NCBI GenBank assembly: GCA_902801515.1
Contig: CADCII010000011.1
Location: forward strand, 85,334 to 129,062
Source: an uncultured Lachnospiraceae bacterium
Lineage (GTDB): Bacteria > Bacillota > Clostridia > Lachnospirales > Lachnospiraceae
DNA: 43,729 bases
Direction of reading: 5' to 3'
The notes beneath the pieces were generated by a model. The model was not told where the DNA came from. It was given only the letters and a program-made list of their open reading frames with translations, and made no database searches. Both the position numbers and the translations under genes were made by a program. Below, piece after piece: positions 6,036-23,162 of this stretch (the stretch's first letter is position 1; each line of letters begins with the position of its first letter).

Positions 6036-6042
6036 TCTTATG

Positions 6043-6122
<80 letters not shown>

Positions 6123-6543: not shown

Positions 6544-6546
6544 AAG

Positions 6547-6619
6547 TGAGACATCGGGGACTCGAACCCCGGACAACCTGATTAAAAGTCAGGTGCTCTA
6601 CCGCCTGAGCTAATGTCCC
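6547..6619 (-). tRNA. tRNA-Lys (UUU)
   Basis: Acceptor GGGACAT pairs with ATGTCTC with one G-U. The anticodon arm is CCTGA-CTTTTAA-TCAGG, anticodon UUU. The T-arm is CGGGG-TTCGAGT-CCCCG and the discriminator is A. It is the last gene of the minus-strand tRNA operon. Confidence 0.96.
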
Positions 6620-6654
6620 AGAAAAATAATAAAAATGCGGGCCTTACGGCCAAG

Positions 6655-6726
6655 CTGGGCTAACCGGATTCGAACCGGTGTATGCAGGAGTCAAAGTCCT
6701 GTGCCTTACCGCTTGGCGATAGCCCA
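6655..6726 (-). tRNA. tRNA-Gln (UUG)
   Basis: Acceptor TGGGCTA pairs perfectly with TAGCCCA, discriminator G. The anticodon arm is CAGGA-CTTTGAC-TCCTG, anticodon UUG. The T-arm is ACCGG-TTCGAAT-CCGGT. Confidence 0.96.
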
Positions 6727-6734
6727 AGGGAAAG

Positions 6735-6817
6735 GGTGGGTACAGGGATTCGAACCCTGGGCCTCCAGAGCCACAATCTGGGAAGGCCGTTGCTCTATCC
6801 GGCTGAGCTACAGACTC
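6735..6817 (-). pseudogene. Chimeric tRNA: 5' half of tRNA-Arg(UCU) joined to 3' half of tRNA-His(GUG)
   Basis: The 83-nt segment sits where one tRNA should be. Its 5' part (6817-6782) is GAGTCTG, a normal D-arm and ACGGCCTTC, which is the first half of a tRNA-Arg(UCU) whose loop would read CTTCTAA. Its 3' part (about 6781-6735) is a complete His anticodon arm CCAGA-TTGTGGC-TCTGG, T-arm CAGGG-TTCGAAT-CCCTG, acceptor strand TACCCAC and the C73 discriminator typical of tRNA-His. The two acceptor strands do not pair: three Watson-Crick pairs and one G-T out of seven. Nine extra bases lie before the anticodon stem. The simplest reading is a deletion that fused adjacent Arg and His genes. It is almost surely non-functional as a tRNA. 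An assembly collapse between similar genes could give the same picture. Confidence 0.85.
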
Positions 6818-6828
6818 ATGTTACAAAA

Positions 6829-6899
6829 AGCGGGTGATGGGAATCGAACCCACGTATCCAGCTTGGAAGGCTGGTGTTCTACCATTGAACTACACCCGC
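6829..6899 (-). tRNA. tRNA-Gly (UCC)
   Basis: Acceptor GCGGGTG pairs with CACCCGC, discriminator T. The anticodon arm is CCAGC-CTTCCAA-GCTGG, anticodon UCC. The T-loop is TTCGATT. Confidence 0.96.
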
Positions 6900-6920: not shown

Positions 6921-6995
6921 TCGGGGTGACAAGATTCGAACTTGCGACCCCCTGCTCCCAAAGCAGGTGCTCTAGCCAAACTGAGCCACACCCCG
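6921..6995 (-). tRNA. tRNA-Pro (UGG)
   Basis: Acceptor CGGGGTG pairs with CACCCCG, discriminator A. The anticodon arm is CCTGC-TTTGGGA-GCAGG, anticodon UGG. It is the first gene of the minus-strand tRNA operon, about 20 bases after the predicted start point. Confidence 0.96.
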
Positions 6996-9809: not shown

Positions 9810-11723
9810 TTAGCCAAGCGGTATCTCCACCACCTCTGCCATCCTGGTAAGGCACTGCTCGATCTGCTCGGAGATCTCCTCCGTCAGCCTGCCTGTTATC
9901 TCTGTGTTCTTCTCTTTCTCAAGGCTCTCGAAGAAACTAGCCTTCACCTCCGGAGAGATCTTCTTCATACGATTCTCAAAGGAAGATCTGGTGACCACCT
10001 TCCTGAGCGGTTTGGGCAGATTGATGTCCATCATGCGGTTCTCGATATGCCCCTGTCCGATCAGCAGCACGCTGAGTGATATGATTGCTCCGACAATGAT
10101 TCCCTCCAGCCCACCTGCGATCAGCGCGATCCCGCTGCCGCCGCACAAAAGGCCGACCAGTACGGAGATGATTGCGTTAATCATCCAGGTAATCTGGTCA
10201 AGGGCAAACATGTCCTTCGTATCAATCTTTATATCGATATCAGAGAGCGACAGATAGCTGTTCAGGTTCAGCGCCTTGTAGGGGACATTGTGCCGCACAC
10301 AGATCGGCATCGTATATTCCTCAAGTTCATAGGCTACAGGACTCAGCCATGAGGAAATGGTCTCCACCAGAAGCTTCTGTGCATCTTCTCCTCTGAGATA
10401 ATGTTCAATCTCCTTCGCCAGTTCTTCGTCGATCTCCGACAGACGGCTGATCTCTCCTGTTCTCCAGCGGTCAAACACATTCATGACCGGAGTCTCTATG
10501 ATCGGATCCACCAGGGCATCGACGATCCGGCGGTACAGGTCTTCCATGTGGCTCTCGACGATACTCTCAACCGTGCTCGTCTCTATGAGGTCATCCACCT
10601 CTTTCCTGAAAGCCCTCATATCCTCGTCGATCTTACCGCAGTACGCCAGCCCGCGGGCAACCGAAAACTCCGGCTGCGGCGTCGTAACGATAACCGAATC
10701 AGGGAACGCCTCCTGGCACCACTGCCCGATCGCGGGAAGTCTCGACACTCCGCCGGTCAGGAAGATCAGTTCGGGAGATTCATCCGCGATCTTCGAACGG
10801 ATCTCGGCAAGGCTCTCGCAGAAAGCCTCTTTAAATGAAGCCCCGTTCAGTCCCGGAGCAGGCGAGTACAGAATCCTGTCCGCGATCGTCCGGTTCATGC
10901 GGATCGTCAGGTTATGGCTTCCTTCATAGAGGATCTCGACACTGCGGCTGCAGGAACGGCTCGCCCAGTAATCCTCATCCGCAAAGTACTTCTCCTTCAG
11001 ACGCCTTGCAGCGAATTCGCAGTAATTCTTCCAGGCTTCACTTTTCTCAAAGATGCCTTCAATGGCAGTCCTGTCGGAGGATGCCTTCACGCTCTCCTCC
11101 AGCAGCATCCGGTCCATGATCCCGCCGCCCAGCATCACTTCTCCGGCCGTCTGCAGTTCCACTTCCCTGCCGGATTCGATAAACGCAAAGTCCGTTGTCG
11201 AAGATCCTATGTCCACGACAAGGACAGGTTTTGACATAATGTCATAGGCGACCTGGAGATGCTTCGACCGGCAGGCAGATATCAGTGCAGCCCTGGACTC
11301 GGATATGATCCTCGCCGGCGGATATCCCGCGTCTTCAAAGATCCTGCGGTACCGCTCACGGTCCGCCTTCGACCAGCCTGCCGGGCAGCCGACATAGAAG
11401 CAGGAATCCTCCCCCTGCACCAGATTACCGTCCCGGATCAGACAGGACAGCACTCCTGCCGCGAAAGTCCGCACATCCCTGGCACTTTCAGGATCTGTCA
11501 GGAACCTGCTCTTGAAACGCAGTTTTCTCTCAAGAACATCCGGGGCATAGCATGCGCTCTCTCCGATCAGAAGATCCCCCTGCGTGCGTCTGGCGAAAGC
11601 CGTGATGAAACTCTGCGCGTCACAGACAGGCAGCACATCCGGATCCTTCAGCATATTTTCTTTACTAAGCCTGGCAACAGCACTCTCTGCATCCCCCAGG
11701 TCAAATCCGTAGTAACGTTCCAT
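9810..11723 (-). CDS. Membrane-anchored Hsp70-like ATPase
   Basis: This 637-residue protein has an Hsp70/actin ATPase fold: phosphate-1 loop YYGFDLGDAESAV at the N-terminus, phosphate-2 loop LVVDIGSSTTDFAFIE (about residue 165) and adenosine loop FLTGGVSRLPAIG (about 320). It lacks a recognisable peptide-binding domain. Instead the C-terminal 300 residues are helical, with a hydrophobic hairpin at about 507-551 (WMINAIISVLVGLLCGG and GIIVGAIISLSVLLIG) that should embed it in the membrane, then a charged cytoplasmic tail. I start at ATG 11723, behind AGAGGAC, because it precedes the first strand; a TTG at 11762 lies inside the previous gene. It follows its partner by 25 bases. It may be a dedicated chaperone or a cytoskeleton-like scaffold; the family is not one I can name more precisely. 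Confidence 0.82.
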   Translation of the reverse strand: MERYYGFDLGDAESAVARLSKENMLKDPDVLPVCDAQSFITAFARRTQGDLLIGESACYAPDVLERKLRFKSRFLTDPESARDVRTFAAGVLSCLIRDGNLVQGEDSCFYVGCPAGWSKADRERYRRIFEDAGYPPARIISESRAALISACRSKHLQVAYDIMSKPVLVVDIGSSTTDFAFIESGREVELQTAGEVMLGGGIMDRMLLEESVKASSDRTAIEGIFEKSEAWKNYCEFAARRLKEKYFADEDYWASRSCSRSVEILYEGSHNLTIRMNRTIADRILYSPAPGLNGASFKEAFCESLAEIRSKIADESPELIFLTGGVSRLPAIGQWCQEAFPDSVIVTTPQPEFSVARGLAYCGKIDEDMRAFRKEVDDLIETSTVESIVESHMEDLYRRIVDALVDPIIETPVMNVFDRWRTGEISRLSEIDEELAKEIEHYLRGEDAQKLLVETISSWLSPVAYELEEYTMPICVRHNVPYKALNLNSYLSLSDIDIKIDTKDMFALDQITWMINAIISVLVGLLCGGSGIALIAGGLEGIIVGAIISLSVLLIGQGHIENRMMDINLPKPLRKVVTRSSFENRMKKISPEVKASFFESLEKEKNTEITGRLTEEISEQIEQCLTRMAEVVEIPLG

Positions 11724-14672: not shown

Positions 14673-17600
14673 TTATCTGGTCACCTCGACAGTAATCGTT
14701 TTTTTCTTCTTCCCGCATTTAACGGTAATCTTAGCTTTCCCCGGTTTCTTTGCTGTGATGATGCCCTTCTTGGATACAGCGGCGATTTTAGGTTTATTGC
14801 TCTTAAAAACAGGCTTAATCAAAGCAGTAAATGGGTCAATTCCTAGTTTAACTGTAAACTTGTTCCCCTTCTTCAGTTTCAGTGTTCCACCAACATTTAG
14901 AAGAGTCAGCTTTGCAACTGCTACAGGCTTCTGTTGCACTTTCACCGTAATAGTGCGTTTAAGTCCACTTGCAAGTATAATTGTTAATTTTGCGGATTTC
15001 GCTTTTTTACCAGCTTTTATTGTACAGGTTCCATTTTTAGTCCCGTTTACAGTGAATACCTTGGAATCGCTGGAAGACCATCCTCTAACATAATCGCCTT
15101 TTGCCATTCCGCTGACAGACAGGCCGGATGTCGATTTCCCCTTCTGAAGGGTCAAGGTTTTAATATTCCCTGTAATCTTCATTGTCGGGCGCAGCTTCGC
15201 AATTGCTTTATGATTGCTTTTACCGCAGACACTGCAAGTTTGTTCCTGCTTTCCTTCAGATACTGCCGTCGGCTGCAGTACCGTTTTCCAGGAACCCCAG
15301 TTATGTTTTTCTGTTGCCGGTATTTCAACTGTTTCTTTCACCTTACAGATTACACAGTTCCTATACTTGCTGCCAGTATGGTCACAACCAGCTTCGTCCT
15401 GAACCATCCAGGAAGTATACTTATGCTGTGTTTTCTCCAGCACAGCTACAGCAGGATGATCTTCATCTGACTGACCACATACGGCACAATGCCAGCCAAC
15501 TGTTCTGCCTTCATTCTGACAGGTTGGTTCAACAGCACTATCCATCACCCAGAAATGGGCAACCGGCTGCGTATTGAGCACCTCTTCGTATATGCAAAAT
15601 GTATTCGAGCATCCCCATACTTCGGTACCACCTTCTGTGCAGGTTGCTTCCACATACCGTTCGTCCTCCTTTTTCTGCACCAGATTATGAGAAGAACAAA
15701 CTGCATTCTCGAATGTAAAATCACTGAGAGACGGTGTGACGAAAGTGATCGTATTATCCGGATTTCGAGTATACTCCATTTTCACTTTAGTAACAGAGCC
15801 ATCCTCTTTCTCAACATGATGATACAAATCAAATCCCATTTCTTCATAACCGGCAGGAACAGCCATAGTAATCATAATCGGGGCTGCAAGCTGAGTTTTT
15901 CTCTCCTCTTCCTGAATAGCATTCTTCCTGACGTATAAACTGATGTCAAGAGTGCATGTTGCTTTCCCGACTTCGTCAGTCCCAAGCTCCGGTTCACTGA
16001 TTCTGACCACAGCTTGATAAGTGTCCTCACAGGTACTGTCAAGATTCCTGATATCTGCCATTGAGGCTGCAGCTGCTGTCACACTTGCGCCAACTACAGT
16101 CAGTTCAGGAGTGCCAGTAATCGTCTCTGCAATCTTTGCGACAGTTGTGATATCTGATGAAAAATCATCCTGATACAACTGCTGTTCCAACTGACTGATC
16201 AAAATCATGTTTGTCTGATCAGTCTCTGAACATTGTGTGTCTGCCAGAACCAGCGTTTCATTTCCTGTTCGCTCAGCTATATCTACCTTTTCTGCAACAG
16301 AAGCAAAATCATCCATCAAAGTTGATGCAAACGCATCCAATTCAGCCTGTTTTTCAGTAGTGAATCTGACTACCGGGTTCTGAACGGTTCCACAGATCTT
16401 GCATTGATCATAAACGGTCTGTGTTCCTGCCTCTTCATCAATAACCGGATCTGTCTGTTCCCAAATATGCGCACCAGTTGAAGGTATTGAAGCTGGAGTA
16501 TCTGCCGTATTACAAAGGAGGCAGTACCTGGCTTTCTGCCCTTCATGGAGACAATCCGGCTCGATAGTCACTTCCCAGTCTCCCCACTCGTGTTCTCCCT
16601 TCGTACACGGATCGTCAGTCAGTGTCAGAGTCACGGCAAGCGTGTCCGGCGCACTGTCTTTCGCACGAAGACATAATATATATGCAACACCTTTTTGTAG
16701 TGTCATCCCTGAAGCCATTGCAGTGATCAGCCCCTGACCAGGAAGATATACATATGATTCACTTAGACAGATATCAGAATCCCCCAACGCATACTCACTA
16801 CTAACAACAGGAATGAATATTGCATAAAAGTACCTGCGGGCTTCTTTTTCAATAAATGCTGTTCCAATCCTCAAATGCGGAAGGTTATCTATATCCGGCC
16901 TTTCTGCTTCACAGCTTACAAACTGGTCTCCGCAAAACATATACACACACGTTTTGTCTGCTGAAACAATTCTCTCCTGCATTCTGATAGTATTACCATA
17001 TGGATCAGTTTTCATATCAGAATATACAGTCGCCACAGTTCCATCACTGTATGTCACCTCAGCTGCCATTCCAGAGACAGACGCAGCAGCTCCCGGAATC
17101 ATTTTTCCCAAAGGCGTTGTTTTAAGAGACATTGCAGCCGGAGTCTTCCTTCTGGAAACAATAAGATCGAATGCAGGCACTCCGTATTCACTGGCTCCCT
17201 CAAGAAGTTCTCTTGTATCTACTGCGATCACACAGGTAACTCCTTTTGATAGATGAACACTCTCTGTCACCCACGGAACTACATACTCATCTCCTGCCAG
17301 AGAAAGAGCGGTGTCCGGATCAATTACCTTTACGCCATAGCCTCCAGCACTGATTTTGTAATCGCCGTCTTCCTGAGACGTAAAACGATATACCTGCCAC
17401 CCACTCTCATCTCCAACTACTGAGAGAGTTTCCCCCTCTATGACCTCATTCAAAGAATCAATACTGTCATTAAACTCTTGCGTCTGTTTAACATTGTTCA
17501 GGCTGTAGCGATAACCCTGCCTGTCTTTGAAATAGAAATCAAAATGACATTCTTCAAACTTATACTGGTCGCACCAGTACGTATTTCCATAACAGTCATG

Positions 17601-20600
17601 TTCCCCTTCCTCTTCTATCTGTGTAACTTCATCCTCGGTATAGAACAGTGTTACGTTATAGAGCATGCCGGCATCTCCGGAAGCCAGATAGGCCCAATAG
17701 CGCTGTCTAATATCCTCCCTGGGTACAGCCTGAGCAGAAACCGGCGTCTTCTTCTTATTGATCCTGAAGCCAAGGGTGTCCTCCTTTCCTTGCCAGATCA
17801 TTTGTATATGACACTGTTCATTTTCGGAAAGAATGACAGCCCCCTGGAATGTATTCCCTGATCCTTCATGCAAAAGATTTTTTTCGTCCTCGCCTGCTAA
17901 TATCTTCGGACAGGTCAATGCAAGACCATTCTTGTCCGCGGCAGTTACCGACAGGATATACTCTCCCTCCTCTTGTGCTGTAAATGACAGATCAATTCTG
18001 TCTCCATTGTGAACAGGAAGATCCAGATTGGTTCCTTCTGCCAGAGTACCCGACAGGTTATCTCCTGAAGGAACAAGCACAACCGTTTCTTTCCGATAGT
18101 TTTCCGGGCAGACTGCCAGATAAGCTTCCCCTGCTTTCAGCACACCTGTAATATGAACTACTGTATTGTCTGCGATCTGATAAAAAGAGAATCCCTTCCC
18201 GCCGCTTCCATCTGTCAGATATAGCGAATCGTGTTCTGGTACGAACCGGAATAGAGTAGGTCTGCTGAAGACTCCTAACTCAAGAGGCTGTTGTTCCTCT
18301 ATCGCAGGACAATTATCTATGTCGGGCAGTTCCACATTCAGATTGACCGTCTGGGTCTGAATGCTGCTCAGCGAGCTATGCACCGCCTTTATCTGATAAT
18401 CACCCGGCTGAAGAATAATATCGGAATTCACAGAGTCCTCTATATCTACTTTATTTCCTTCAGAGTCAGTGATTACGAAACGGAAGCTGTTGCCAAAACG
18501 GTCTGTCTCCCGGCCATTGATCTCAGCTGCGTCTTCTTCCGGATTCTGATATGAAAGGCCTATGCTGAAACTGCTCAGATCAACAGATTCTATCCCTGCG
18601 ATTAATGGCCGTACTGCCCCCGCATTCCGGGAGAGTGTCGCTTCACTGATGATCCCTTCTGATACAATTCGCTGTAAGGTAATCTTTTGCCCTGCAGTTG
18701 AAGCTCTTATCGCTATTAAATAATTCTTTCCCTTTTCAAGTCTTGCGACAAATGAGTCTGCGTTCAAAGAAGTATCCACCGCTGCAGGTATACTGTCTTC
18801 TTCTCCAAGTTCATAAAACTGCGCAAAAGACAAGCCATGATCTGCTTTAATCGTCTGGAACCCATCCTGTTCAGGATTGAATCCGGCAAACAGGTAATAA
18901 TCATCCGGATTTTCCAATTCAAGAAATTCACCTGAAAACTGACAATCCCGTGCAGCATCATTTGGCGAAATAATGGAAAACATTCTCCATTTATCAGTCT
19001 CATCTTTCCCCGGCAATTGCCACTCCGTCTGAAGAACGAGCGCATATGTCCCCGGTTCTTTATAGAAACCACATTCTATATTGTGTTCCTCCGGATCCTC
19101 ATCATCAAAATACTCCCTTGTCATAAAGGGAACACCATCCCGCAATGAAGATACACTGATTTCGAACCAATTATCGTAGATATCCCCTGTCGAATCATGA
19201 TAAGTATTTAAGTTTTCATCCCTCCTGAAAAAGAGAGTACGGTCGGCTGCCTTCTGATAGTGTACTTTAACTCCCAGTGATCCCAGATTGTATAACCCGG
19301 TCTCCCAGTTACTTCCCTCGAATATTGGTTCACCATAAACAGGGAATCCCGCTACATAACAGGTTCTTCCCAGTTCTCCTACAAGAGAAGCAGATATGAT
19401 CTCGCCAGAATCATCAACCTTTGTCAGCAACAGACTGATTCGGGGTTGATCTTGATTCCATATATCCAGATAATATTGTATTCCGGAATCCAGATAAATC
19501 TCTTTTTGCTTCTCCCCGGCAGGCAGGCTTTCATACTCCAACAGAGAAGGACTTTCATCTTTCTCCCAGTACTTGTATGCAAAACGATCCGAACCAAGTA
19601 TGGTTAGTTTATAGAAACCCTGTTTTCCGCGAAGATCGATCCACTGTGTAGTTCGTTTTTCACCCTGCTCAAACAGCAATGTTTTTTCATGATCAGGTTC
19701 CAGAGAACCATTTATTTTCGCGTCCTGTACCCGGATTCGGGTTTCAGCCAGCTGACGCCAATTCCAGGAATCTGTATCTTCAGTCTCCTCCAGTAATTTC
19801 AGCGTATAATTGCCTGAAGGCATATAGCTATTACTTGACAGTTTCCGTAAGGAAACAGGTGCTCCATACTCATCTGTCAATTCCAGGCACAATTTCTTTC
19901 CGTAAAAGATATCTCCCTCCAGATAGTTGAACCATGAGTCATCGACCTGATGATCCATGTCTATTCCGGAATAGATTTCCTGCCGGCCATCTTCAGCTGT
20001 AACAGAAAACAAAGGGCTCTGTAAAGTCTCATCGAACTCTTCATAAAAAGTCGTCTCGAAATAATCAAATTGCTCCTGAACAAAAGACGCATTTGCGATA
20101 TCGGGAAGATACTGAAGCGAGAAAGATCCTGAAGCGTCAGTCTCTTCGCCGCGATTATGAAAGACTGCAATATAATCCCCATCTAGTTTCGTTTTTCCAT
20201 TATATATATCAGTTATATAACGCAACTGTTGCCGACGCCTTGGTGGATTGTTTTCCAGCTTATATAAGCAGACAGTTGAATATTCTTCCGTTATATCGGT
20301 CACGAGAGAAAGAAACTGCCGGTTGTCAGCGTGAATCCTGATGGATGTAGCTTGCATGCCTGGCAATTCTATCTGCACTGGAACATCTTCTGATAACTCG
20401 TACTCTGTTGAAATAACAAATGATTCCTCCAGCACAGCAATCGGATTAATTTCATTTAACGTATGTGATGACTCAGCAGCAAGCCACTCCTTAAGGTTAT
20501 ATAATTCAATCTTTATATCGCCTACAGGTAAAACTCCATTTTGGAGCGTAATTATAGTGTTGTCTAAACTGTCACTATACACTACATGTTCCTTAACTCT

Positions 20601-23081
20601 GAGGAGAAAAGTATCCTTGTACCTACCTGTACATTGTAAACCGATTGGACGAAATTCACCACTGACATATGGTTTTCCTTGAGGGTTAAGTGTTTCGGAT
20701 AATCCATTTTTGTAAAGAACTCTGACCTGATAGCTTGTATTATCACTTGCCAGAATATCTGTTAATGAAGCATTCCGGTCATACGGCGAGATTATTTCTA
20801 CATTTTCAATTTGGGGGGCTATCGTTATATATGTTTCCCCCCTACTATCGCCTACTTTTACTGAGATAGGGGCTTTAACAAATGCTTTTATACAATATGA
20901 GCCATATTCCAGTTCTTCCTGCAGATCAGAAAACAGAACAGGCTTCAATTCAACTCCTGTACTTTTACTGAAAGTAATAAATATACTCCTTCCAGAGTTT
21001 AAACGTCTCATCAAAAAGCTGTATTCTCCATCTGGAGAGACATACAGTTCATCAAAGGAAGAAAGAGGCAGTTCTTCAGGTTTAGTCACTTTATATGTAA
21101 CACGTACCTTAATATTCTCCACCACCTCCGAGACTTTTCTGTCACGAATACTGCCTGAATTGGATAATACAAGAATCGAATCAATTGTAGGACTATTACA
21201 CAGCTGGCAGTTAACAGAATAAGTACCATCTTCTCCTGAGCCTCGAATAACTGCAATATAGTCGCCCGGTTGATTGAAGTCATATGTTTGCCCGTATGCT
21301 GGCTCTATCTTTAATAGCTGGCAGTTTAAGGATGAGGTTTTATACAGTTCAAAGGAACACCCTGCAGAAGCTGTATCAGTCAAAAGCGTGCGCTCACTCT
21401 GATTCTTATCAATATGAATGCAGAAGGCAGCTGTATTTGTCCCTTGCAATTCATAAGATAATGGATTGTCAGAGTTTAACTCGTCTTGCGCTTCACAAAC
21501 CATAGAAATCTGCTTTGTTGTAAAAGGCTCGGCATTATCCTGTAACCTCCACTCGTCATAAATATATACTTCCAGCACAACATTTCCTGTTGGGATGAAT
21601 CCATTCATCAGCGCATCTGTCTCAGCAGTTACTGATCCATAACTAGAATACTGTTCCGATATTTTAAACCTTACCAGATAGCCAATATCATTGCTGTCCC
21701 TATACATAATCCCCGCATAATATGAGGTTCCTTGCACCATAACAATTTCAGGTGTTGGGTGTAGTGTTTCTTCTTCCCCATCATAATATCTGAGCCTCAG
21801 TTGAATTCCATTCTGTATAAAAGGTAAAAACTCAGATACATTGACAGTATCCCCATAAGCAGTAATAATCTCAATTTCTGCCAGTCCTCTGGTATTGTTT
21901 ACAGATAAACTAATATCTGTTGATGAACCCTCCACTGTATCACGAACAGCAATGAGGCTCTTCTCTCCTTGTTTTAATGTTTCTGTTATGCATCCAGAGG
22001 CACTGTCAGACTCTCCATTCCTTACCCATGCACCAGTCGAATTCTGTTTATAATTTCTTACAATTGTATGATCACTGTCCGCGCTGAATGTAACTGAATA
22101 TCCGCTGTCAACAGGTGCCGTCAACACAAAATACTTCCATCCGTCAGAATCAGCAGTAACCGTTTTTGTCTCGCCTTCGTCAATTATCCCCTGATACCCT
22201 GTTCCTTCTTCAACATCTTTTATAGTTACTGTTTTTTCGTCTGAAGCAACACTATAATACTCGAGTTTCATCTGGTATGTTCCCGTCCGAAACTCCTTTT
22301 CGGACGGCATGCGAAAAGTCTGTCCGTTCTGATCACACAGTTTTAGTGAAAAATCGCCCCCTCCGAGATTTCCGCCTTCAAGAGTGTTACGTATATACGA
22401 CGACAAGCCATTATATCTCACCCAGGCTCTTATTCTGTATGATTCAGTAACCCATTGATTTGATCCCCATTTTTGCAGTCTGAAACTGGCACTGGCATCC
22501 AGTAAGTCTTTATCCAAATAACCATAATCCTCAGGAAGAACATCCATCAATTCAAAAGGATCATATATATCTTTGGTATATAAATGTACAGAAAGCAGTT
22601 CTGCATCCTGTACATACATACTTGTACCAGGATCCAGATAGTCTTCCTGCATTGCATAAAGAAGGCCATCTTCCAGCGCCTCTGTCTCTTCATCAATATT
22701 CTCATAAGATTCTTCTGCCGTCTCAATATCGTTGTCACTACCTATCGTACTGGAAGGGTTCAGCACTTCATCTTTCTGTAATGGTATAGTATTATGCGTA
22801 TCCTCCGTTTCATCTTCGCCCGGTATAAACGCATCTGCTTCAAAATCTTCCTCTACAACAGATTCATCCTCCACAAACGTATTTTCTGCTGCAGATACAG
22901 TGCTCTCCGTTTCTTCTAAATAACCAATCCGCTCTGAATAGTCTTCTGTACTGTCTTCAATTATCTCCGAAAATGCAGAATCTTCAAAAGAGTCGTCCGC
23001 ATACCCTATCATGGCCGCATTCGGCAAAGACGTGCCTAACATACTGAATATCAAAGCAAAAGAAACAAATTGTTTTTTCAT
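14673..23081 (-). CDS. Giant secreted modular protein, 2802 residues
   Basis: The start ATG 23081 has GGAGCGGTG upstream and opens a signal peptide (MKKQFVSFALIFSMLGTSLP). An acidic, disordered stretch of about 120 residues follows. Then come many beta-rich modules of 200-300 residues, several with the pattern of a GWKYFVLTAP/GWQVYRFTSQ pre-peptidase-like strand pair. Two related modules are evident: around 21890-21210 (IITAYGDTVNVSEFLPF) and 20815-20105 (IISPYDRNASLTDIL). The C-terminal fifth holds repeated W-CxxC segments (CLLCN, CKICG, CAVCG, CVICK, CSVCG; about 16620-15220) that may bind metal or form disulfides. Two Big-2/Ig-like lysine-rich modules end the protein (about 15190-14676). 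There is no LPxTG signal or C-terminal membrane helix, so it is secreted or held non-covalently. Its middle is visibly more AT-rich than its neighbours, hinting at separate origin. Function unknown; adhesion or matrix role is a guess. Confidence 0.88.
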   Translation of the reverse strand: MKKQFVSFALIFSMLGTSLPNAAMIGYADDSFEDSAFSEIIEDSTEDYSERIGYLEETESTVSAAENTFVEDESVVEEDFEADAFIPGEDETEDTHNTIPLQKDEVLNPSSTIGSDNDIETAEESYENIDEETEALEDGLLYAMQEDYLDPGTSMYVQDAELLSVHLYTKDIYDPFELMDVLPEDYGYLDKDLLDASASFRLQKWGSNQWVTESYRIRAWVRYNGLSSYIRNTLEGGNLGGGDFSLKLCDQNGQTFRMPSEKEFRTGTYQMKLEYYSVASDEKTVTIKDVEEGTGYQGIIDEGETKTVTADSDGWKYFVLTAPVDSGYSVTFSADSDHTIVRNYKQNSTGAWVRNGESDSASGCITETLKQGEKSLIAVRDTVEGSSTDISLSVNNTRGLAEIEIITAYGDTVNVSEFLPFIQNGIQLRLRYYDGEEETLHPTPEIVMVQGTSYYAGIMYRDSNDIGYLVRFKISEQYSSYGSVTAETDALMNGFIPTGNVVLEVYIYDEWRLQDNAEPFTTKQISMVCEAQDELNSDNPLSYELQGTNTAAFCIHIDKNQSERTLLTDTASAGCSFELYKTSSLNCQLLKIEPAYGQTYDFNQPGDYIAVIRGSGEDGTYSVNCQLCNSPTIDSILVLSNSGSIRDRKVSEVVENIKVRVTYKVTKPEELPLSSFDELYVSPDGEYSFLMRRLNSGRSIFITFSKSTGVELKPVLFSDLQEELEYGSYCIKAFVKAPISVKVGDSRGETYITIAPQIENVEIISPYDRNASLTDILASDNTSYQVRVLYKNGLSETLNPQGKPYVSGEFRPIGLQCTGRYKDTFLLRVKEHVVYSDSLDNTIITLQNGVLPVGDIKIELYNLKEWLAAESSHTLNEINPIAVLEESFVISTEYELSEDVPVQIELPGMQATSIRIHADNRQFLSLVTDITEEYSTVCLYKLENNPPRRRQQLRYITDIYNGKTKLDGDYIAVFHNRGEETDASGSFSLQYLPDIANASFVQEQFDYFETTFYEEFDETLQSPLFSVTAEDGRQEIYSGIDMDHQVDDSWFNYLEGDIFYGKKLCLELTDEYGAPVSLRKLSSNSYMPSGNYTLKLLEETEDTDSWNWRQLAETRIRVQDAKINGSLEPDHEKTLLFEQGEKRTTQWIDLRGKQGFYKLTILGSDRFAYKYWEKDESPSLLEYESLPAGEKQKEIYLDSGIQYYLDIWNQDQPRISLLLTKVDDSGEIISASLVGELGRTCYVAGFPVYGEPIFEGSNWETGLYNLGSLGVKVHYQKAADRTLFFRRDENLNTYHDSTGDIYDNWFEISVSSLRDGVPFMTREYFDDEDPEEHNIECGFYKEPGTYALVLQTEWQLPGKDETDKWRMFSIISPNDAARDCQFSGEFLELENPDDYYLFAGFNPEQDGFQTIKADHGLSFAQFYELGEEDSIPAAVDTSLNADSFVARLEKGKNYLIAIRASTAGQKITLQRIVSEGIISEATLSRNAGAVRPLIAGIESVDLSSFSIGLSYQNPEEDAAEINGRETDRFGNSFRFVITDSEGNKVDIEDSVNSDIILQPGDYQIKAVHSSLSSIQTQTVNLNVELPDIDNCPAIEEQQPLELGVFSRPTLFRFVPEHDSLYLTDGSGGKGFSFYQIADNTVVHITGVLKAGEAYLAVCPENYRKETVVLVPSGDNLSGTLAEGTNLDLPVHNGDRIDLSFTAQEEGEYILSVTAADKNGLALTCPKILAGEDEKNLLHEGSGNTFQGAVILSENEQCHIQMIWQGKEDTLGFRINKKKTPVSAQAVPREDIRQRYWAYLASGDAGMLYNVTLFYTEDEVTQIEEEGEHDCYGNTYWCDQYKFEECHFDFYFKDRQGYRYSLNNVKQTQEFNDSIDSLNEVIEGETLSVVGDESGWQVYRFTSQEDGDYKISAGGYGVKVIDPDTALSLAGDEYVVPWVTESVHLSKGVTCVIAVDTRELLEGASEYGVPAFDLIVSRRKTPAAMSLKTTPLGKMIPGAAASVSGMAAEVTYSDGTVATVYSDMKTDPYGNTIRMQERIVSADKTCVYMFCGDQFVSCEAERPDIDNLPHLRIGTAFIEKEARRYFYAIFIPVVSSEYALGDSDICLSESYVYLPGQGLITAMASGMTLQKGVAYILCLRAKDSAPDTLAVTLTLTDDPCTKGEHEWGDWEVTIEPDCLHEGQKARYCLLCNTADTPASIPSTGAHIWEQTDPVIDEEAGTQTVYDQCKICGTVQNPVVRFTTEKQAELDAFASTLMDDFASVAEKVDIAERTGNETLVLADTQCSETDQTNMILISQLEQQLYQDDFSSDITTVAKIAETITGTPELTVVGASVTAAAASMADIRNLDSTCEDTYQAVVRISEPELGTDEVGKATCTLDISLYVRKNAIQEEERKTQLAAPIMITMAVPAGYEEMGFDLYHHVEKEDGSVTKVKMEYTRNPDNTITFVTPSLSDFTFENAVCSSHNLVQKKEDERYVEATCTEGGTEVWGCSNTFCIYEEVLNTQPVAHFWVMDSAVEPTCQNEGRTVGWHCAVCGQSDEDHPAVAVLEKTQHKYTSWMVQDEAGCDHTGSKYRNCVICKVKETVEIPATEKHNWGSWKTVLQPTAVSEGKQEQTCSVCGKSNHKAIAKLRPTMKITGNIKTLTLQKGKSTSGLSVSGMAKGDYVRGWSSSDSKVFTVNGTKNGTCTIKAGKKAKSAKLTIILASGLKRTITVKVQQKPVAVAKLTLLNVGGTLKLKKGNKFTVKLGIDPFTALIKPVFKSNKPKIAAVSKKGIITAKKPGKAKITVKCGKKKKTITVEVTR

Positions 23082-23162
23082 AATCACCGCTCCATTAATT
23101 GTTTTGGATCGACTTCTTCCTGTCATGAGCAACTGTGTAAAAATAGTTACAATATATATTTC

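Follow-up and report, generated by a model that had tools for sequence, protein, structure and literature searches.

A hybrid tRNA-Arg(UCU)/tRNA-His(GUG) gene in a draft Lachnospiraceae genome, most likely an assembly fault

The hybrid gene and its tRNA neighbors

The window analyzed here is the whole 43,729-nucleotide stretch of DNA, taken from the draft genome (G000) of an uncultured Lachnospiraceae bacterium. It contains a cluster of tRNA genes in which five intact members (Pro, Gly, Gln, Lys, and Leu), all on one strand and scoring 53.9–77.5 bits with the Rfam tRNA model, surround a gene of composite structure. Read along the minus strand from 6817 to 6735, this gene consists of the 5′ part of a tRNA-Arg(UCU) fused to the 3′ part of a tRNA-His(GUG). 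The features, in the direction of that strand, are as follows (G018 being a genome of the same genus):

6921–6995, minus strand: tRNA-Pro(UGG), intact (ARAGORN; tRNA model 65.8 bits)
6829–6899, minus strand: tRNA-Gly(UCC), intact, upstream neighbor of the hybrid (ARAGORN; 77.5 bits)
6782–6817, minus strand: tRNA-Arg(UCU) nucleotides 1–36, comprising the acceptor 5′ strand, the D-arm, and the 5′ side of the anticodon arm through the second anticodon base
6781–6782, minus strand: joint, with 74 bp of G018 missing between these bases
6760–6788, minus strand: extended hairpin made by the joint, GGCCT/AGGCC atop the His anticodon stem, with a two-base bulge
6735–6781, minus strand: tRNA-His(GUG) from the first anticodon-stem base (nucleotide 27) to C73, anticodon GTG
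6654–6726, minus strand: tRNA-Gln(UUG), intact, downstream neighbor of the hybrid (ARAGORN; 64.5 bits)
6546–6619, minus strand: tRNA-Lys(UUU), intact (ARAGORN; 70 bits)
6042–6122, minus strand: tRNA-Leu(UAG), intact (ARAGORN; 53.9 bits)

The fusion had been proposed in a first-pass annotation, and both of its halves are now matched at 100% to intact genes of congeners: the Arg part over nucleotides 1–36 in six genomes (G002, G007, G009, G010, G011, and G018), and the His part (hybrid nucleotides 37–85, 49 nucleotides, the match running two bases past C73 to 6733) in nine, with 94% identity in G010. The nine extra bases which the same annotation had placed ahead of the His anticodon stem are there as described and correspond to Arg nucleotides 27–35. 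Relative to G018, exactly 74 bp are missing at the joint, which shares zero bases between its two sides (maximal prefix 36, minimal suffix start 36) and thus has no microhomology.

As a tRNA the hybrid appears to be dead. The Arg 5′ strand forms four of seven acceptor pairs with the His 3′ strand, one of them G-T, as compared with seven of seven in each parent and a mean of 2.0 for random 7-mers; the earlier statement that the acceptor strands do not pair therefore stands insofar as the proper stem is gone, but has to be softened for the four scattered pairs that survive. The GGCCT/AGGCC hairpin, also noted earlier, is present in the minimum-energy fold, the energy of which is nonetheless no better than that of shuffled sequences (z = −0.26; matched or bettered by 80 of 200 shuffles). 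Scored against RF00005, the tRNA model of Rfam, the hybrid reaches 27.0 bits over model positions 7–64 only, and no match is returned at the gathering threshold (29 bits). ARAGORN calls a 69-nucleotide tRNA-His at 6734–6802.

Processing of the hybrid into a working tRNA-His, or its use as a regulatory RNA, is hardly credible. It would be consistent with the retention of the GUG anticodon arm, the T-arm, and C73, as well as with the lack of any other His gene in the assembly; against it stand the missing G-1 and seven-pair acceptor stem, the model score under the cut-off, the shuffle-like fold energy, and the lack of a full-length match to the hybrid among 60 relatives. When 199 bases were searched for an alternative acceptor 5′ strand, the sole 7-mers making six of seven pairs with the His 3′ strand lay inside tRNA-Gly. 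A functional hybrid was rejected on the acceptor pairing and the model score, which support the earlier suspicion that the transcript is useless; it should be neither chargeable nor usable. Split or permuted tRNA genes, which occur in archaea and some algae, resemble the hybrid in being made of tRNA gene halves; the hybrid differs in joining halves of two different tRNAs in one gene, and their partner halves were not found in G000.

The locus in related genomes

One full-length tRNA-His (96–100% identity) is present in each of ten of the 18 same-genus genomes (G002, G003, G004, G005, G007, G008, G009, G010, G011, and G018), and the tRNA-His DNA query gave no such match in the other eight (G001, G006, and G012–G017; completeness 68–91%). 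The His gene is intact in all ten, an intact Arg(UCU) lies directly upstream of it in nine, and the order Arg(UCU)-His-Gln-Lys is likewise intact in nine. Nine of the ten carry a single full-length Arg(UCU) (97–100%), and no second full copy of either His or Arg(UCU) was found in any genus member searched. The interval matching the 74-bp gap measures 74–91 bp in the seven intact congeners in which both ends were located, with 89 bp in G010 and 94 bp in G003. The spacers on both sides of the hybrid closely resemble those of G011 and G018. With both flanks pointing to these two close relatives, the halves belong to a single locus in a single lineage rather than to a cross-species chimera. The geometry is thus that of a deletion between neighbors, as the first-pass annotation had supposed.

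A different lesion is seen in G005 (L005 1398–1446, contig C17), in which Arg(UCU) is without 24 bp spanning the anticodon arm. No full-length Arg(UCU) was found elsewhere in that genome, the best other match to the Arg query being Arg(CCG). In three congeners (G007 contig C8, G002 contig C117, and G008 contig C5) the array is interrupted between Gly and Arg, where extra DNA places tRNA-Pro/Gly approximately 2.1–2.4 kb from Arg(UCU)-His; the part of the G007 insert that was read (~1.4 kb) holds protein-sized open reading frames, one of which may encode an MntP-type transporter.

Beyond the genus, the Arg 5′ stretch is common to at least 119 stretches of the genome collection. Of these, 80 were listed: in 69 of them ARAGORN recognized the Arg(UCU) and His(GUG) genes together, in seven it recognized Arg(UCU) but not His(GUG), and in four neither. 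In three of these four the match sits right at the record end, so that 77 of the 80 can be judged; the last of the four (L202), inspected by eye, is an intact tRNA whose anticodon is a different one. No Arg-His fusion was seen in these 77. An exact-letter pattern of the fusion, which fusions with other letters would escape, matched one of 392 genomes of the order, namely G000 itself. None of the titles listed in a literature search concerns a bacterial fusion of Arg and His tRNAs.

The sister gene tRNA-Arg(CCU) shows another kind of disruption. In some genomes of the genus, orphans of the gene's 5′ half stand ahead of it; they end in CTCCTAA or CTCCTAAG and have spacers of approximately 80–310 bp:

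L126 (G005, contig C3): three orphan halves, then the intact gene
L130 (G007): one orphan half, then the intact gene
L127 (G013): one orphan half, then the intact gene
L069 (G000, contig C9, 234–266), minus strand: half, then other sequence to the contig end
L128 (G016): half, then other sequence to the contig end

A single intact Arg(CCU) gene is present in G004, G006, G009, and G018, and outside the genus G033 and G057 each have an Arg(CCU) half that does not continue as a tRNA. The orphan halves look like the trace of an integration hotspot at the anticodon loop, where repeated integration may have rebuilt the 5′ half. A scan of viral contigs with the Arg(CCU) 5′ stretch returned 22 stretches, 19 of which are tRNA-Arg(CCU) by ARAGORN; the remaining three are L338 and L355, both near the record end, and L351.

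Missing tRNA genes and the origin of the hybrid

G000 is the draft of a gut bacterium, comprising 3,076,480 bases in 94 contigs (completeness 100, contamination 3.46), in which the tRNA model recognizes 38 genes over the cut-off, none of them an intact His(GUG) or Arg(UCU). The intact His query gave one partial match, the hybrid half, and the intact Arg query gave three, namely the 36 nucleotides of the hybrid and weaker matches to Arg(CCG) and to half of Arg(CCU); the tRNA-His in the ARAGORN list for G000 is the hybrid itself. A genome-wide count of both genes with the tRNA model and the two DNA queries thus yielded no intact copy anywhere in the 94-contig assembly, contrary to the earlier thought that other copies might exist. 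Codon use in the window is ordinary, with AGA at 10.6, CAC at 6.5, and CAT at 13.2 per 1000 codons in a mechanical pick of 30 open reading frames longer than 120 amino acids (13,165 codons in 43.7 kb, some frames being spurious and one running across the tRNA cluster), and disuse of AGA codons was rejected on that rate.

Taken as complete, the assembly would leave the cell without two needed tRNAs, but it has gaps in its tRNA complement. It contains neither Leu(UAA) nor Gly(GCC), both of which are present in loci fetched from relatives, the list of its anticodons does not include Ile(GAU), and Arg(CCU) is represented by its 5′ half only, approximately 230 bp from a contig end, with no intact copy. 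Contig C11 ends within the 23S rRNA. The drafts of nine relatives have 27 to 45 tRNA matches each.

Most probably the hybrid is an error in the assembled DNA; failing that, it is an unremarkable dead copy of a gene. In the reading favored here, with a probability of roughly 0.5, the fusion does not reflect the living genome but arose in a fragmentary draft, through a mis-join or along a damaged, rare, or minority read path: where conserved tRNA sequence tangled the assembly graph, the conserved neighbors Arg(UCU) and His(GUG) would have been connected across the gap of ~74 bp. That the living genome probably differs is argued from the parents being needed, being single-copy in the genus where found, and having no intact copy in the rest of the assembly. 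The rarity of the fusion, seen in none of the 77 judgeable stretches of the 80 listed and without a full hybrid match in 60 relatives, also favors such a fault. The Arg 5′ stretch, shared as widely as it is, could tangle a metagenome graph, the number of contigs suggesting that G000 is of metagenome origin, and the different lesion in the sole detected Arg(UCU) of G005 fits a recurrent fault of drafts. Known local mis-assemblies at tRNA and rRNA loci of metagenome-assembled genomes share with the present case a fragmented draft, other missing tRNAs, and contig ends (here one at rRNA and one near a repeated tRNA half). It has to be noted, however, that the joint lacks the shared word which plain graph mis-joins would have; such a word is usual, though not obligatory, as the place where assemblers go wrong, and in its absence the joint must have had the backing of a read or of a gap-closing step. 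The same-lineage flanks and the apparently sound remainder of the window likewise speak against an assembly fault.

A real deletion of ~74 bp, for which the odds appear a little less than even, would have left a dead hybrid in this strain, with intact copies of His(GUG) and of Arg(UCU) lying in stretches missing from the assembly, for example in a tRNA array at an rRNA operon, on a mobile element, or on a plasmid. The clean deletion geometry, the same-lineage flanks, and the intact neighboring genes found in the same order in nine of ten congeners are in its favor, and the separate 24-bp lesion in Arg(UCU) of G005 could mean that such loss is tolerated. Moreover, Leu(UAA), missing in G000, sits in five relatives in a contig-end array Asn-(Glu)-Met-Asp-Leu, next to which a 23S tail is found in G009 and G010, so that there is room for unseen genes. 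Yet no His or Arg(UCU) occurs in 12 array stretches from five relatives (G004, G005, G009, G010, and G018), and no genus member has a second full copy. Known tRNA pseudogenes formed by deletion in an array share with the hybrid the adjacent genes, their strand and order, the missing stretch between them, and the lack of a working fold; they differ in that the window's deletion, if real, would remove genes both needed and single-copy in the genus, while ordinary tRNA pseudogenes usually lie beside working copies. Because the backup copies are missing from the assembly, the assembly fault is placed slightly ahead of a deletion with unassembled backup. Two further readings carry far less weight. 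Integration of an element at the anticodon loop of Arg(UCU), followed by imprecise excision that removed adjoining bases, is suggested by the split of Arg(CCU) close to the same loop position, with its orphan 5′ halves and spacers, but is quite unlikely: all ten genus members with the locus are free of an orphan half or element inside Arg(UCU), the hybrid breaks after the second anticodon base and Arg(CCU) after CCTAA or CCTAAG, and no integrase was recognized by eye in ~1.4 kb of the G007 Gly-Arg insert. Still less probable is a deletion that is real and fixed with no intact His(GUG) or Arg(UCU) left in the chromosome, the tRNAs being supplied in some unusual way, for instance from a mobile element or as a repaired or hybrid molecule; were it true, the G005 lesion would mark the genus as repeatedly losing Arg(UCU), and one would have to ask how histidine and AGA codons are read in the cell.

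The case serves mostly as a caution: in a draft rated 100% complete, a tRNA gene that is needed and single-copy can appear broken. Given that ARAGORN still lists the hybrid as tRNA-His, tRNA tallies of such draft genomes can be wrong.

Other features of the draft genome

Some further features of G000 were observed apart from the hybrid. On contig C53 (L356 9010–10403), a gene for an RtcB-type RNA ligase (Pfam PF01139, E = 6.8e-55) adjoins a tRNA-Ile(UAU), and a weak tRNA match of 31.8 bits lies beside the ligase gene at 10243–10323; among the matches to this tRNA pair listed in relatives, most are single tRNA genes. On contig C58 (L357 3112–3183), ARAGORN reads a two-base anticodon in a tRNA-like gene whose anticodon loop has six bases; the contig also encodes an HNH endonuclease and a replication-associated protein and is perhaps a mobile element. 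Within the window itself, the minus strand at 14673–23132 holds an open reading frame of 2819 amino acids, in which Pfam recognizes only a bacterial Ig-like domain near the C-terminus.
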